Assembly (NCBI RefSeq): GCF_001425265.1
Contig: NZ_LMEC01000021.1
Location: 372,001 to 436,000, forward strand
DNA length: 64,000 bases
Origin: Massilia sp. Root418
GTDB lineage: Bacteria; Pseudomonadota; Gammaproteobacteria; Burkholderiales; Burkholderiaceae_D
Reading direction: 5' to 3'
Under the pieces are notes generated by a model. It did no database searches, had not been told where the DNA came from, and saw only the letters and a program-made list of their open reading frames with translations. Below are positions 10,996 through 33,289 of this stretch, piece after piece (the first letter of the stretch is position 1; each line of letters opens with the position of its first letter). The position numbers were made by a program, and so were the translations under genes.

Positions 10996-11751
10996 ATGGA
11001 AAATATCATTTACATCACCGTGGTGTTCCTGCTTGCAGGGATGGTTAAGGGCGTGACCGGCATGGGGCTGCCGACCGTGGCGGTGGCGCTGCTCAGCCTT
11101 GTAATGCCGCCGGTGGAGGCTGCGGCCCTGCTGATCGTGCCTTCGCTTTTGACGAATGTCTGGCAGCTGCTTTCCGGTTTGCCGGTGTATCCGCTGTGGC
11201 AGCGCCTGTGGCCGATGATGGCGGGCATCTGTATCGGGACTGGCGCGGCTACGTTGGCGGAAAATGCGCTGGCGGGAGGCGCGCTGGCGGCCGACGCGAA
11301 GATGGCCAGCGGCGTGCTCGGCGTGGCGCTGGTGGCGTATGCGGCCATGGGGCTGCTGTCGGTGCGCTGGAGGCTGCGCGGCAGCGAGGGCGTGATGTCG
11401 CCGGCGGTGGGGGCGCTTACCGGCGCCATCACGGCGGCTACCGGCGTGTTCGTGATACCGGCGGTGCCTTATCTGCAGGCGCTGGAGCTGGAGAAGGATG
11501 AGCTGGTGCAGGCGATGGGACTGGCGTTCACGGTGTCCACGGTGGCGCTGGCCGTGTCGCTGGCGGCGCGCGGGGCCTGGCAGCCGGCGGCGGCGGGGAT
11601 GTCATTCGTGGCGCAGCTGCCGGCGGTGGCGGGCATGCTGCTGGGACAGCGCCTGCGCAACCGCATGGCGCCGGAGGTGTTCCGCAAGTGCTTTTTGTTT
11701 GCGCTGCTGTTGCTGGGGATGCACCTGGCGCTGGAGGCGGCGTGGCATTGA
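10996..11751 (+). CDS. TauE/SafE-family membrane permease
   Basis: A 251-residue integral membrane protein with about eight hydrophobic segments in two similar halves. The half-starting motifs FLLAGMVKGVTGMGLPTVAVALLS and VGALTGAITAATGVFVIPAVPYLQ are the family's G-x-x-G-G/A-x-G signature. TauE/SafE proteins are believed to move sulfite, sulfoacetate or related organosulfonates and some other small anions. The substrate here is not determined. It is divergently transcribed from a LysR regulator. Confidence 0.88.
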   Translation: MENIIYITVVFLLAGMVKGVTGMGLPTVAVALLSLVMPPVEAAALLIVPSLLTNVWQLLSGLPVYPLWQRLWPMMAGICIGTGAATLAENALAGGALAADAKMASGVLGVALVAYAAMGLLSVRWRLRGSEGVMSPAVGALTGAITAATGVFVIPAVPYLQALELEKDELVQAMGLAFTVSTVALAVSLAARGAWQPAAAGMSFVAQLPAVAGMLLGQRLRNRMAPEVFRKCFLFALLLLGMHLALEAAWH

Positions 11752-11765
11752 CCGTAGCGGCGCTC

Positions 11766-11802
11766 GGCGGGTTACGGTGCCTTGCACCTAACCCGCCCTA
11801 CG
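11766..11802. repeat. Dispersed palindrome, copy B (left border of the array)
   Basis: GGCGGGTTA at 11766-11774 and TAACCCGCC at 11789-11797, followed by CTACG. It starts 14 bases after the permease stop and ends 5 bases before the first tandem unit, so it forms the left border of the array. Confidence 0.8.
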
Positions 11803-11806
11803 TGCC

Positions 11807-12304
11807 GCATCACGTGAAGTCCGGCGGGTTACGTGCCGCATGACGTGAAGCCCGGCGGGCCACGTGCCGCATGACGTGACACCCGGCGGGTTACGTGCGC
11901 ATGACGTGAAGTCCGGCGGGTTACGTGCCGCATGACGTGAAACCCGGCGGATTACGTGCGCATGACGTGAAGCCCGGCGGGTTGCGTGCGCATGACGTGA
12001 AGCCCGGCGGGTTACGTGCCGCATGACGTGAAGCCCGGCGGGTTACGTGCGCATGACGTGAAGCCCGGCGGGTCACGTGCGCATGACGTGAAACCCGGCG
12101 GGTTACGTGCGCATGACGTGAAGCCCGGCGGGTCACATACGCATGACGTGAAACCCGGCGGATTACGTGCGCGTGACGTGAAGCCCGGCGGGTTACGTGC
12201 GCATGACGTGAAAACGGGCGGATTACGTGCGCATGATGTGAAACCCGGCGGTTTATGTGCGCATGACGTTAAGCCCGGCGGGTTGCGTGCTCATGACGTG
12301 AATT
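11807..12304. repeat. Tandem array of 16 full 30/31-bp units plus a partial unit
   Basis: The unit starts GCATGACGTGAAGCCCGGCG and ends GGTTACGTGC. Sixteen full copies run head to tail from 11807 to 12290, with a partial seventeenth fading into palindrome copy C. Units 1, 2, 4 and 7 carry one extra C (31 bp); the rest are exactly 30 bp. Substitutions are scattered, with the most divergent units (14-16) at the right end. There are no unique spacers, so it is not CRISPR. GGCGGGTTACG inside the unit equals one arm of the palindromes that flank the array. Because 30 is a multiple of three, several frames stay open (one would read AHDVKPGGLR repeats), but no ribosome binding site or gene context supports coding. 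Confidence 0.95.
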
Positions 12305-12339
12305 CGTAGGGCGGGTTAGCGCGACGCGCGTAACCCGCC
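12305..12339. repeat. Dispersed palindrome, copy C (right border of the array)
   Basis: CGTAGGGCGGGTTA from 12305, with GGCGGGTTA at 12310-12318 pairing with TAACCCGCC at 12331-12339. It is inverted relative to copy B, so the array is enclosed by palindromes whose CTACG/CGTAG tails both point inward to the array. It ends 5 bases before the stop of the convergent LysR gene and may act as its terminator. Confidence 0.8.
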
Positions 12340-12344
12340 GCGCG

Positions 12345-13253
12345 TCACGGCAGCGTGTTCAGCACCTCGGCGATCTGCTCGCGCAGCCAGCGGTTGGCGG
12401 GGTCGCTGTCCACATTGGCGTGCCAGTACAGCTGGTTGTCGATGTGCGCCAGCTCCAGCGGCAGCGCCAGCAGCTGGTGCCCGAACTGCTGGTTCAGCAC
12501 CTGGCCATAGCGCTCGGGCATGGTGAGCAGCAGGTCGGTCTGGCTCACTACCGTGCACGCCGTGTAGTAATGCTGGCAGCGCATGCGGATGCGCCGCTGC
12601 AGACCGCGCCGGCTCAGCTCCACGTCCTCCAGGCTTGGCCCGCTGCGGCGCGAGCTGACCTGGATATGCTCCTGCCGCAAATACATCTCCAGGTCCAGCG
12701 CCCGCTGCACCTGCGGATGGCTGGCGCGCGCCAGCACCACCGTCTGGTCGGACGGCAGCCGCATCTGGCGGATGTCCTTGGACAGCGGCAGCAGCAGATC
12801 GATCGCCGCGTCGATGCTGCCGGCAGCGAGCTCGCCTTCCAGGTCGCCGCGTGCCACACGCAGCGCATTCACACCCACCGACGGCGCCGCCGAGGCGATG
12901 CGTGCCATCAGCGGCGGCAGGATGGTGGGCTCCACCACGTCGCGCATGGCCAGCGTGAAGGTGCGCTCGCTGGTGGCCGGGTCGAAGCGCTCGGCGCCGC
13001 TCAGCGTTACCTCGAACCCGCGCAGCGCCTGGCGCACCGGCTCGATGATGCTGCGCGCCAGCGGCGTGGGCACCATCACGTGGCCCTGGCGCTCGAACAA
13101 GGCATCGTTCAGCAACTGGCGCAGGCGTGCCAGCGCGTGGCTCACGGCGGGCTGGGTGAGGTTCATTTTCAGGCTGGCGCGGGTCAGGCTGCCTTCCGTG
13201 TAGATGGCGTCGAACACGACAAACAGATTCAGGTCGACCTTGGATATATGCAT
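12345..13253 (-). CDS. LysR-family transcriptional regulator
   Basis: A 302-residue LysR protein. The N-terminus MHISKVDLNLFVVFDAIYTEGSLTRAS is of the NodD/LinR-like branch, with the recognition helix in LTQPAVSHALARLRQLL. The effector domain covers about residues 90-300. It is divergent from a histidine-phosphatase-family gene, and the shared 93-base gap holds overlapping inverted repeats, suggesting control of that gene and of itself. The effector is unknown. Confidence 0.88.
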   Translation of the reverse strand: MHISKVDLNLFVVFDAIYTEGSLTRASLKMNLTQPAVSHALARLRQLLNDALFERQGHVMVPTPLARSIIEPVRQALRGFEVTLSGAERFDPATSERTFTLAMRDVVEPTILPPLMARIASAAPSVGVNALRVARGDLEGELAAGSIDAAIDLLLPLSKDIRQMRLPSDQTVVLARASHPQVQRALDLEMYLRQEHIQVSSRRSGPSLEDVELSRRGLQRRIRMRCQHYYTACTVVSQTDLLLTMPERYGQVLNQQFGHQLLALPLELAHIDNQLYWHANVDSDPANRWLREQIAEVLNTLP

Positions 13254-24358: not shown

Positions 24359-24391
24359 GGCGGGTTACGGCTGCGCCTAACCCGCTCTACG
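24359..24391. repeat. Dispersed palindrome, copy D
   Basis: GGCGGGTTA at 24359-24367 with TAACCCGCT at 24378-24386 (one end mismatch), then CTACG. It lies 10 bases after the transporter's last stop. With copy E it forms an inverted pair separated by 32 bases between two convergent genes, a likely bidirectional transcription end. Confidence 0.75.
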
Positions 24392-24423: not shown

Positions 24424-24458
24424 CGTAGGGCGGGTTAGCCGGAACGGCGTAACCCGCC
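24424..24458. repeat. Dispersed palindrome, copy E
   Basis: CGTAGGGCGGGTTA from 24424, with GGCGGGTTA at 24429-24437 pairing with TAACCCGCC at 24450-24458. It is opposite in orientation to copy D and ends 4 bases before the stop of the UraD-AllC gene. Confidence 0.8.
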
Positions 24459-32212: not shown

Positions 32213-33289
32213 ATGCCGAACACTGCGCCGCCCGCCCGCTACGATCTGCCCTGGAAGCTGGCGATGACCCATGCCTTTCAGGCTTTCATGGCCTTCTTTT
32301 TTGCTGACTTGTGCTCCCGGATCGACTGGTCCAGGCGGCCGCGTTTCCGCGACAAGGAATTGGCCGGAATCGGTTTCGGCGACGCGCCGGACGGCATGGT
32401 GGCCGACAACCTGGTTGAGGTGTGCCTGTGCGACGGCAGCGTGCAGTGGGTGCTGATCCATGTCGAGGTTCAGGCGCAACGCGACGCATCGCTGGCGCGG
32501 CGCGTACTGGACTACAACTACCGTATCTTCAAGGAGTACGGGCGGCCCGTGGCCAGCCTGGTGCTGCTTGCCGACGATGATCCGGGCTGGCAACCGCACG
32601 CCTTTCATAATCACGTACTGGGTACGGTAATGGGCATCTCCTTCAGCACCGCCAAGCTGCTGGACTATGCTGCTCAGACTGATGCATTGCTGGCCTCGCA
32701 TAATCCCTTTGCCTGGGTCACGCTGGCGCATTTGCGCACGCAGCAGAGCCGCCACGACCCGGAACAGCTTTACGCTGCCAAATGGCAGCTGACCAAGCTC
32801 CTGTACCAGCATGGCTGGCGCAAACGGCGCATAATTGTTTTGTTCAGAGTGATCAATTGGATGATGGCCTTGCCGGCGCCTCATCAGGAGCGGTACTGGC
32901 AGGCTGTCCTTGAGCTGGAGAAGGAGCGCAACATGGAATGGATCACGCCGCTGGAGCAGTCGTTCGTGGACAAGGGGTGGAAGAAGGGCCTGGAGCAAGG
33001 CCTGGAGCAAGGCCTGGAGCAAGGCTTGGAGCAAGGCTTGGAGAAAGGCATGGAGCGCGGTCTGGAGAAAGGCCTGGAAGAAGGCCTTCAACAGGGCCGC
33101 AAGGAGGGTGCGGCAGCGTTGCTGGAACGGCAGCTGGCGCGGCGTTTCGGGCCGTTGCCGCAGGCCGTCCGGAGCAAGCTTGCCCAGGCCGGCGCCGAGC
33201 AACTGGCAAGCTGGAGCGACGCGCTGCTGGAGGCGCGTACGCTGCAGGAGGTGTTCGAACAAGATCCGGGCGCTGCCGGCGCGCCCTGA
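32213..33289 (+). CDS. Rpn-family PD-(D/E)XK nuclease/transposase-like protein with DUF4351-type tail
   Basis: A 358-residue protein. The N-terminal half has a PD-(D/E)XK core: Asp65 (VADNLVEV) and Glu85-x-Gln87 (IHVEVQAQ), then YNYRIFKEYGRPVASLVLLADD, which fits the recombination-promoting nuclease (Rpn) families. Ten four-residue repeats (GLEQ, GLEK, GMER, GLEE...) cover residues 259-298, followed by a DUF4351-like end (ERQLARRFGPL...SDALLEARTLQEVF). The DNA repeat at 32987-33106 is a 12-bp unit, so copy changes keep the frame. No terminal repeats or IS ends surround it, so it is a stand-alone gene. No good ribosome site precedes ATG 32213. Confidence 0.82.
   Translation: MPNTAPPARYDLPWKLAMTHAFQAFMAFFFADLCSRIDWSRRPRFRDKELAGIGFGDAPDGMVADNLVEVCLCDGSVQWVLIHVEVQAQRDASLARRVLDYNYRIFKEYGRPVASLVLLADDDPGWQPHAFHNHVLGTVMGISFSTAKLLDYAAQTDALLASHNPFAWVTLAHLRTQQSRHDPEQLYAAKWQLTKLLYQHGWRKRRIIVLFRVINWMMALPAPHQERYWQAVLELEKERNMEWITPLEQSFVDKGWKKGLEQGLEQGLEQGLEQGLEKGMERGLEKGLEEGLQQGRKEGAAALLERQLARRFGPLPQAVRSKLAQAGAEQLASWSDALLEARTLQEVFEQDPGAAGAP
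32987..33106 (+). repeat. 12-bp coding tandem repeat inside the Rpn-like gene
   Basis: About ten GGCCTGGAGCAA-type units in frame. The first five are nearly identical at the DNA level (C/T wobble only) and later ones diverge, which suggests recent expansion from the 5' side. Each copy adds GLEQ and is predicted to be helical. Confidence 0.85.

Follow-up and report, generated by a model that had tools for sequence, protein, structure and literature searches.

Inverted pairs of GTAG-type REP elements are known as BIMEs or TT dimers, and the passages on these dimers in Di Nocera et al. (2013, PMC3733652) give, as a rule of thumb, variable TT spacers of mostly 20-100 bp, and describe large REP clusters in which some REPs recur in tandem together with the DNA beside them. 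Tandem clusters of REPINs or REPs occur as well, according to the parts of Bertels and Rainey (2011, PMC3116915) drawn on here, and the majority of the bacterial minisatellites in PMC2884548 are, per its methods section, PU (REP) elements. As for the enzymes, the TnpA-REPs studied in the relevant portion of PMC8266576 cut single-stranded REPs at CT, either 5′ or 3′ of the REP and with GTAG needed, one of them cutting at CA as well. The locus analysed here lies in a stretch of 64,000 nucleotides from Massilia sp. Root418, hereafter the window, and was thought in an initial annotation to match no described element; its layout does have a described parent, because the two palindromes belong to the GTAG-type REPs and make up a BIME/REPIN-like pair.

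RESULTS

A 16-unit minisatellite between convergent genes

Between a TauE/SafE family permease gene (10996-11751, +) and a convergent LysR-type regulator gene (12345-13253, −), TRF and splitting at the REP arm delimited a tandem array of 16 imperfect units at 11823-12305 (+), comprising four units of 31 bp (starting at 11823, 11854, 11915 and 12006), eleven of 30 bp and a final one of 29 bp that runs into the right-hand palindrome, REP C. A single array was given by TRF at 11799-12302 (period 30, 16.6 copies, 88% matches), whose score of 760 is the top of the 27 rows in the window; the runner-up, scoring 132, lies at 32967-33087 and consists of 8.4 copies of the 12-bp period GGCCTGGAGCAA, a multiple of three, and is perhaps coding. 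The array unit joins the REP arm GGCGGGTTACG to a spacer sequence TGCCGCATGACGTGAAGYCC, the arm being exact in seven units, with one mismatch in six and more distant in three, and a first spacer copy (11802-11822, +), read from the sequence, directly follows the left-hand palindrome, REP B. Chance is excluded, because 21 arm matches were counted in the window against 1.5 expected, and four full palindromes against 0 in 100 shuffles. The initial annotation was thus borne out in its description of 16 head-to-tail units, four of them one base longer, which contain one arm of a dispersed palindrome plus adjoining DNA and are bounded by two intact inverted palindromes, with convergent permease and LysR genes on either side. 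With its head-to-tail units of at least 10 bp, the array has the form of a minisatellite.

The units have a mean identity of 0.88, neighbouring ones being slightly more similar (Mantel r 0.29, p 0.01). A further proposal, that the right-end units are the most diverged and the array grew from the left, was not upheld: distance to the consensus gave rho 0.43 with position in the array (p 0.10; p 0.23 with the last unit dropped), and the second unit is as distant from the consensus as the last. Searching the 7.27-Mb genome at up to 3 mismatches returned 10 matches of the unit, all inside the array. Among 100 genomes searched, the own genome was the sole match, and a three-unit arm array was found at no site besides this one across 392 genomes of the family. 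The initial annotation took the unit to stem from the palindrome, a view that palindrome-free units in relatives would contradict; the unit was seen in none of the 99 relatives, and its exact 24-mer had no match in genome_contigs, a collection from which the own genome may be missing. A CRISPR was rejected, because the units stand head to tail without unique spacers. A 97-aa ORF (12016-12309) with a decapeptide repeat was not accepted as a gene, since a 30-bp period by itself produces such a repeat and the reading frame is shifted by the four 31-bp units. Inspection by eye of the CCC-GGC-GGG mini-hairpin of the units yielded no convincing paired changes.

A functional array, i.e. a transcription block or a set of sites bound by a nucleoid protein or a regulator, would suit the place between convergent genes and the strong RNA folding of the whole array stretch (z −6.1). 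However, the terminator scan of 11500-12600 found 0 sites (shuffles mean 1.0), with no GC-rich stem followed by a T run there, and within the window no Rfam family reached the gathering score; the array is also absent from Pseudoduganella aquatica and 98 other relatives, and the units at other sites are unrelated. We regard such a function as very improbable, also for the transcription block suggested initially, as P. aquatica keeps the REP pair without the array, and a host function is unnecessary to explain the array.

The bounding palindromes are GTAG-type REP elements

REP B (11766-11801, −; 36 bp) and REP C (12306-12339, +; 34 bp) are both intact and carry GTAG, and they are inverted with their GTAG ends, at the right of REP B and the left of REP C, facing the array, the linker now measuring 504 bp. 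Two more full REPs of the family lie in the window at 847-878 (−) and 24425-24458 (+), and an arm match at 24359, 66 bp from the latter, is perhaps a decayed partner. The family, GTAGGGCGGGTTA-N-TAACCCGCC, has 439 strict copies genome-wide, 216 on one strand and 223 on the other, with 0 for the reversed control. Because each is an imperfect palindrome of 20-50 nt with GTAG at its foot, the copy number is high and a RAYT gene lies beside copies, as in the GTAG super-family, the window palindromes are GTAG-type REP elements. The palindrome extends into the inner part in 130 of 134 own REPs, whose inner stems are of 82 kinds, the common ones recurring. REP pairs were located in 54 gaps with a crude gene caller, versus 59 pairs by a relaxed pattern.

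Four Y1-transposase genes were found in the genome, and only that at C11:113019-113555 has REPs of the family within 1.5 kb, with two of them upstream and a third overlapping the gene's end. This gene fits NF047646, REP-associated tyrosine transposase, with 188 bits at a cut-off of 80, and matches the solved TnpA-REP structure PDB 4er8 (E 3.5e-46). Counting REPs with a looser pattern in 10 genus genomes and searching RAYT in 12 genomes (E<=1e-20) gave 449 REPs with RAYT in the own genome, 424 with a 77% identical RAYT in P. aquatica and 43 with a 59% identical one in G017, whereas 18 REPs in G112, 4 in G109 and 0 in each of the remaining five genus genomes went with no RAYT match; RAYT relatives are also present in G015 and G018, both outside the REP count. 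Compared at the protein level, RAYT (L077:13020-13559 versus G102:C94:7025-7564) is 77% identical, and the flank left of the adjoining REP pair has 93% DNA identity, so from these alignments the gene seems to change faster than its neighbourhood. In G017 the REP occurs in a GGATTA version, and among the close pairs listed for this genome many are ordered + before −, with GTAG outside, opposite to the own genome. Elsewhere in the own genome, the spacer at L162:18064-18161 is mainly an inverted repeat with AATGGGGTCAGGGTTAATT, which also forms a 41-bp two-copy array (L078:9588-9667) just upstream of another Y1-transposase gene (L078:9774-10106); these sites are perhaps a second REP-like system.

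The REP pair is older than the array

In the sister species, Pseudoduganella aquatica FT127W (G102, Oxalobacteraceae), the permease and LysR genes have 88% and 90% DNA identity to those of the window, and the REP pair is present between them as well (L046), its spacer being a plain 24 bp without the array, one base being changed in REP B and the inner stem being different in REP C. The permease-LysR gap of a further relative, G109, is ∼20 bp without a REP, the 20-29 bp between matches in L049-L051 are likewise free of REPs, and L048 has a different GTAG-like sequence at the orthologous place. The array is the derived state, because P. aquatica has the pair with a 24-bp spacer and the further relative no pair; the pair is therefore older than the array here, and the alignments make the array a lineage-specific expansion in its spacer. 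The array-free state of P. aquatica has the inverse REPs with a short linker (24 bp) that mark a BIME or REP dimer, and this pair folds into a single hairpin that has the spacer for its loop (−39.4 versus −17.2 kcal/mol in shuffles, z −9.5), as a REPIN does; as to movement as a unit, the comparison covered the presence or absence of the pair between relatives. Of the spacer copies in the window, the last one, adjacent to REP C, is similar to the P. aquatica spacer (p 0.003 versus shuffles, in one of six comparisons), and the first one shows no resemblance to it (p 0.35).

The way in which the unit arose may be read from REP B. The sequence of REP B with its spacer is GGCGGGT-TACG-(22 bp)-TACG-TGCCGC, and a 26-bp loss between the two TACG copies (11773-11776 and 11799-11802) would give the unit's join. 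Such a deletion probably removed the hairpin from one REP B copy, leaving a 31-bp unit of arm plus spacer that would then have been amplified to 16 copies; alternatively, the unit could come from two REPs whose junction collapsed. In P. aquatica, a 25-bp array (L219) likewise has a unit of REP arm plus other DNA, with a 17-bp stretch common to the window unit, and we take the two arrays to be independent, because their sites differ.

Tandem arrays recur in the spacers of tail-to-tail REP pairs

A survey covered 2.1 Mb of the own genome, i.e. 1.7 Mb in 85 pieces of 20 kb plus 400 kb of contig C11, the latter fetched once the pattern had been noticed. REPs are overlapped by 5 of the 57 merged TRF arrays in the 1.7 Mb, with no other array within 1 kb, and 5 of 24 in the 400 kb lie at most 2 bp from a REP, with one more within 1 kb. 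The 45 tail-to-tail pairs included 28 with a spacer of at least 24 bp. Internal repeats at p<=0.01 (from 100-200 shuffles, with slight shifts between runs, and with spacers >200 bp trimmed to 200) were detected in 14 of these 28 spacers, the window array being counted and one (L162:18064) being mainly an inverted repeat, versus 5 of 56 outer flanks belonging to these pairs (p 5e-5) and 0 of 112 random pieces. Around single REPs, repeats were present in 2/36 flanks adjoining GTAG and in 3/36 opposite ones, and pairs in other orientations had them in 0/3. The later-fetched set alone gave 6 of 11 spacers with repeats, and among spacers of at least 50 bp 13 of 14 passed p<=0.01, the remaining one having p 0.02. 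The best periods of the spacer arrays range from 8 to 56 bp, and their units differ among sites, with a few resemblances between arrays. Arm capture is not typical of them, arm-like sequence being present in 4 of the 24 array-bearing spacers checked. The window array is the extreme of a class of spacer arrays.

Ordinary replication slippage in unconstrained intergenic DNA, with the REPs as incidental markers of neutral places, is favoured by the repeats in gaps without REPs: 29 of 390 REP-free intergenic pieces defined by a crude gene caller have repeats (convergent 14/90, divergent 6/150, same strand 9/150), and convergent gaps are over-represented among those holding a pair (24/54 gaps versus 218/999 gaps). 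Part of the spacer repeats is therefore intergenic background. Nevertheless, the spacers exceed both the REP-free convergent gaps (p 6e-4) and all 390 REP-free pieces (p 3e-8, Fisher), the outer flanks of the very same pairs and the flanks of single REPs are low in repeats, and 10 of the 11 merged TRF arrays within 1 kb of a REP sit 0-2 bp from one. Slippage indifferent to the REPs is accordingly an unlikely source of the class, though one with some claim.

Long spacers in other species

Scanning other species for pairs with spacers of 60-90 bp yielded 29 loci, with repeats at p<=0.01 in 10 of 11 spacers of P. aquatica, 1 of 14 of Duganella sp. 1411 and 0 of 4 of four other taxa (P. aquatica versus Duganella sp. 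1411, p 3e-5), and in 2 of 57 outer flanks. The 10/11 holds for long spacers only, because short ones dominate in P. aquatica too, and one REP misses the full pattern in three of its ten arrays (L219, L222 and L229). Duganella sp. 1411 has a RAYT relative, 60% identical, and its long-spacer loci mostly without tandem repeats (L207, L209, L214-L216, L218, L221, L225-L228, L230 and L231) are another organisation, many of its long spacers starting with GTG and ending with CAC, often as GTGTTTCC...ACAC, with ends that are partly complementary. These data also bear on the thought that the copy number of the window array is an assembly artefact. The genome is a draft of 26 contigs, but the units differ mutually, the array lies inside a 575-kb contig, and similar arrays are found in another, separately assembled species, so we give an artefact hardly any credence.

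Spacers turn over at orthologous pairs

At nine orthologous pairs of the own genome and P. aquatica, compared with spacers >60 bp trimmed to 60, 0 of 9 spacers were similar at p<=0.01 (mean identity 0.40), versus 10 of 18 adjoining outer 25-bp flanks (mean 0.72; Fisher p 0.009), neither outer flank being similar at three of the nine pairs. One own pair (L190:1954) stands opposite an empty site, and no unbiased sharing rate follows from the P. aquatica regions, because they were chosen for holding REP pairs. Arrays occurred on either species' side, with own spacers of 197, 24 and 19 bp opposite ones of 27, 89 and 72 bp, respectively. Within the REPs, the inner stem is frequently a different one but still palindromic, and the 13-base foot and arm are unchanged. 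The spacers at orthologous pairs have turned over, while the REP arms stay.

Such differing, still palindromic inner stems, together with the recurrence of common stems among the 82 kinds, could also arise if spacers and inner stems were swapped among REP pairs by gene conversion or REP insertion, the arrays arriving ready-made. An all-versus-all comparison of 92 spacers, however, gave matches mostly in repeats or REP-arm stretches, and no whole short spacer was common to two pairs. Donors may lie elsewhere, since this comparison spans 2.1 Mb of the own genome and part of P. aquatica; we judge swapping improbable.

CT/AG is depleted in the spacers

Prompted by the cleavage specificity in PMC8266576, we examined CT, TC and CA in the tail-to-tail spacers, and then the full dinucleotide set, in which CT/AG is the most depleted of the ten classes. 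CT/AG was counted 58 times versus 135 expected in 44 own spacers (0.43, 95% 0.36-0.52) and 59 times versus 107 in 32 P. aquatica spacers (0.55, 0.41-0.70), whereas the ratios outside were 0.95 and 1.03 in the respective outer flanks and 0.94 in random own DNA. Fixing the end bases left 0.45 and 0.59, respectively, with 0/1000 shuffles as low. The window array, whose units are not independent, has 1 CT and 10 AG versus 24 and 34 in shuffles. At single REPs the effect is weak, and no depletion is seen on the outer side of REPs; Duganella sp. 1411 shows the depletion also outside the pair. CA/TG is not depleted in the spacers. TC/GA is somewhat low in own spacers (0.78, 0/1000 shuffles as low; P. 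aquatica 1.03) and AT is enriched twofold, so that another compositional force is possible.

DISCUSSION

Taken together, we consider it probable that the array is a minisatellite expanded inside the spacer of a tail-to-tail GTAG-type REP pair, with the spacer, or hairpin loop, as a hotspot of breakage and slippage, perhaps nicked by RAYT. We infer a hairpin in vivo, its nicking and a repair route as follows. In single-stranded DNA at the replication fork, the REP pair would fold as one long hairpin with the spacer as its loop; hairpin nucleases may break or nick this loop, or RAYT may do so, given that its studied relatives cleave at C|T next to REPs in the cited portion of PMC8266576; and slippage or repair could then duplicate or replace spacer DNA. 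Against this explanation stands Duganella sp. 1411, which has a RAYT relative and yet an array in only one of 14 long spacers, and also the fact that studied RAYTs cut on either side of the REP, yet the outer side is undepleted.

A bolder version, which we put forward tentatively and as clearly the less likely of the two, would make tail-to-tail REP pairs RAYT-targeted hypermutation cassettes, in which C|T cuts on both spacer strands and error-prone repair rewrite or multiply the spacer until CT is gone, the REPs being preserved. If this were true, the RAYT-REP system would be a continuing source of new minisatellites and of local intergenic diversity. On the hotspot explanation that we prefer, REP-pair spacers offer a birthplace for bacterial minisatellites, and the pairs look like local nurseries of fast-changing DNA. 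The footprint bears on the cellular role of domesticated RAYT transposases and REP pairs, since in the genome and its sister species the TT spacers turn over, give rise to tandem arrays of unrelated units and are poor in the dinucleotide cut by studied RAYTs; RAYT activity therefore becomes testable via spacer mutation with versus without the gene.

What appears to be new is the TT spacer as a birthplace of unrelated minisatellites and its CT/AG depletion, neither of which we found in searches of open-access PMC; judged by titles and abstract starts, none of the papers that these searches listed deals with minisatellites born in REP-pair spacers, and the passages of PMC3733652 considered here make no mention of arrays inside TT spacers. 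As described in those passages, the BIME/TT dimers of GTAG-type REPs are like the window locus in having two inverted GTAG palindromes with GTAG inside and a spacer between them, whereas the spacer in the window is occupied by an array of 16 units that are themselves no longer palindromic, and other sites hold unrelated short-period arrays. REPINs, in the cited parts of PMC3116915, resemble the window pair as inverted REPs able to form one hairpin, found genome-wide and with a RAYT, but their clusters repeat the whole REPIN or REP, while the window array repeats arm plus spacer and is bounded by one pair. Bacterial minisatellites or VNTRs, as far as PMC2884548 was drawn on, share the head-to-tail units of ∼30 bp; a majority of those minisatellites are REPs, whereas the window array is bounded by REPs, one genome per species being compared here. 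The array is thus a variant of the known BIME/REPIN kind.
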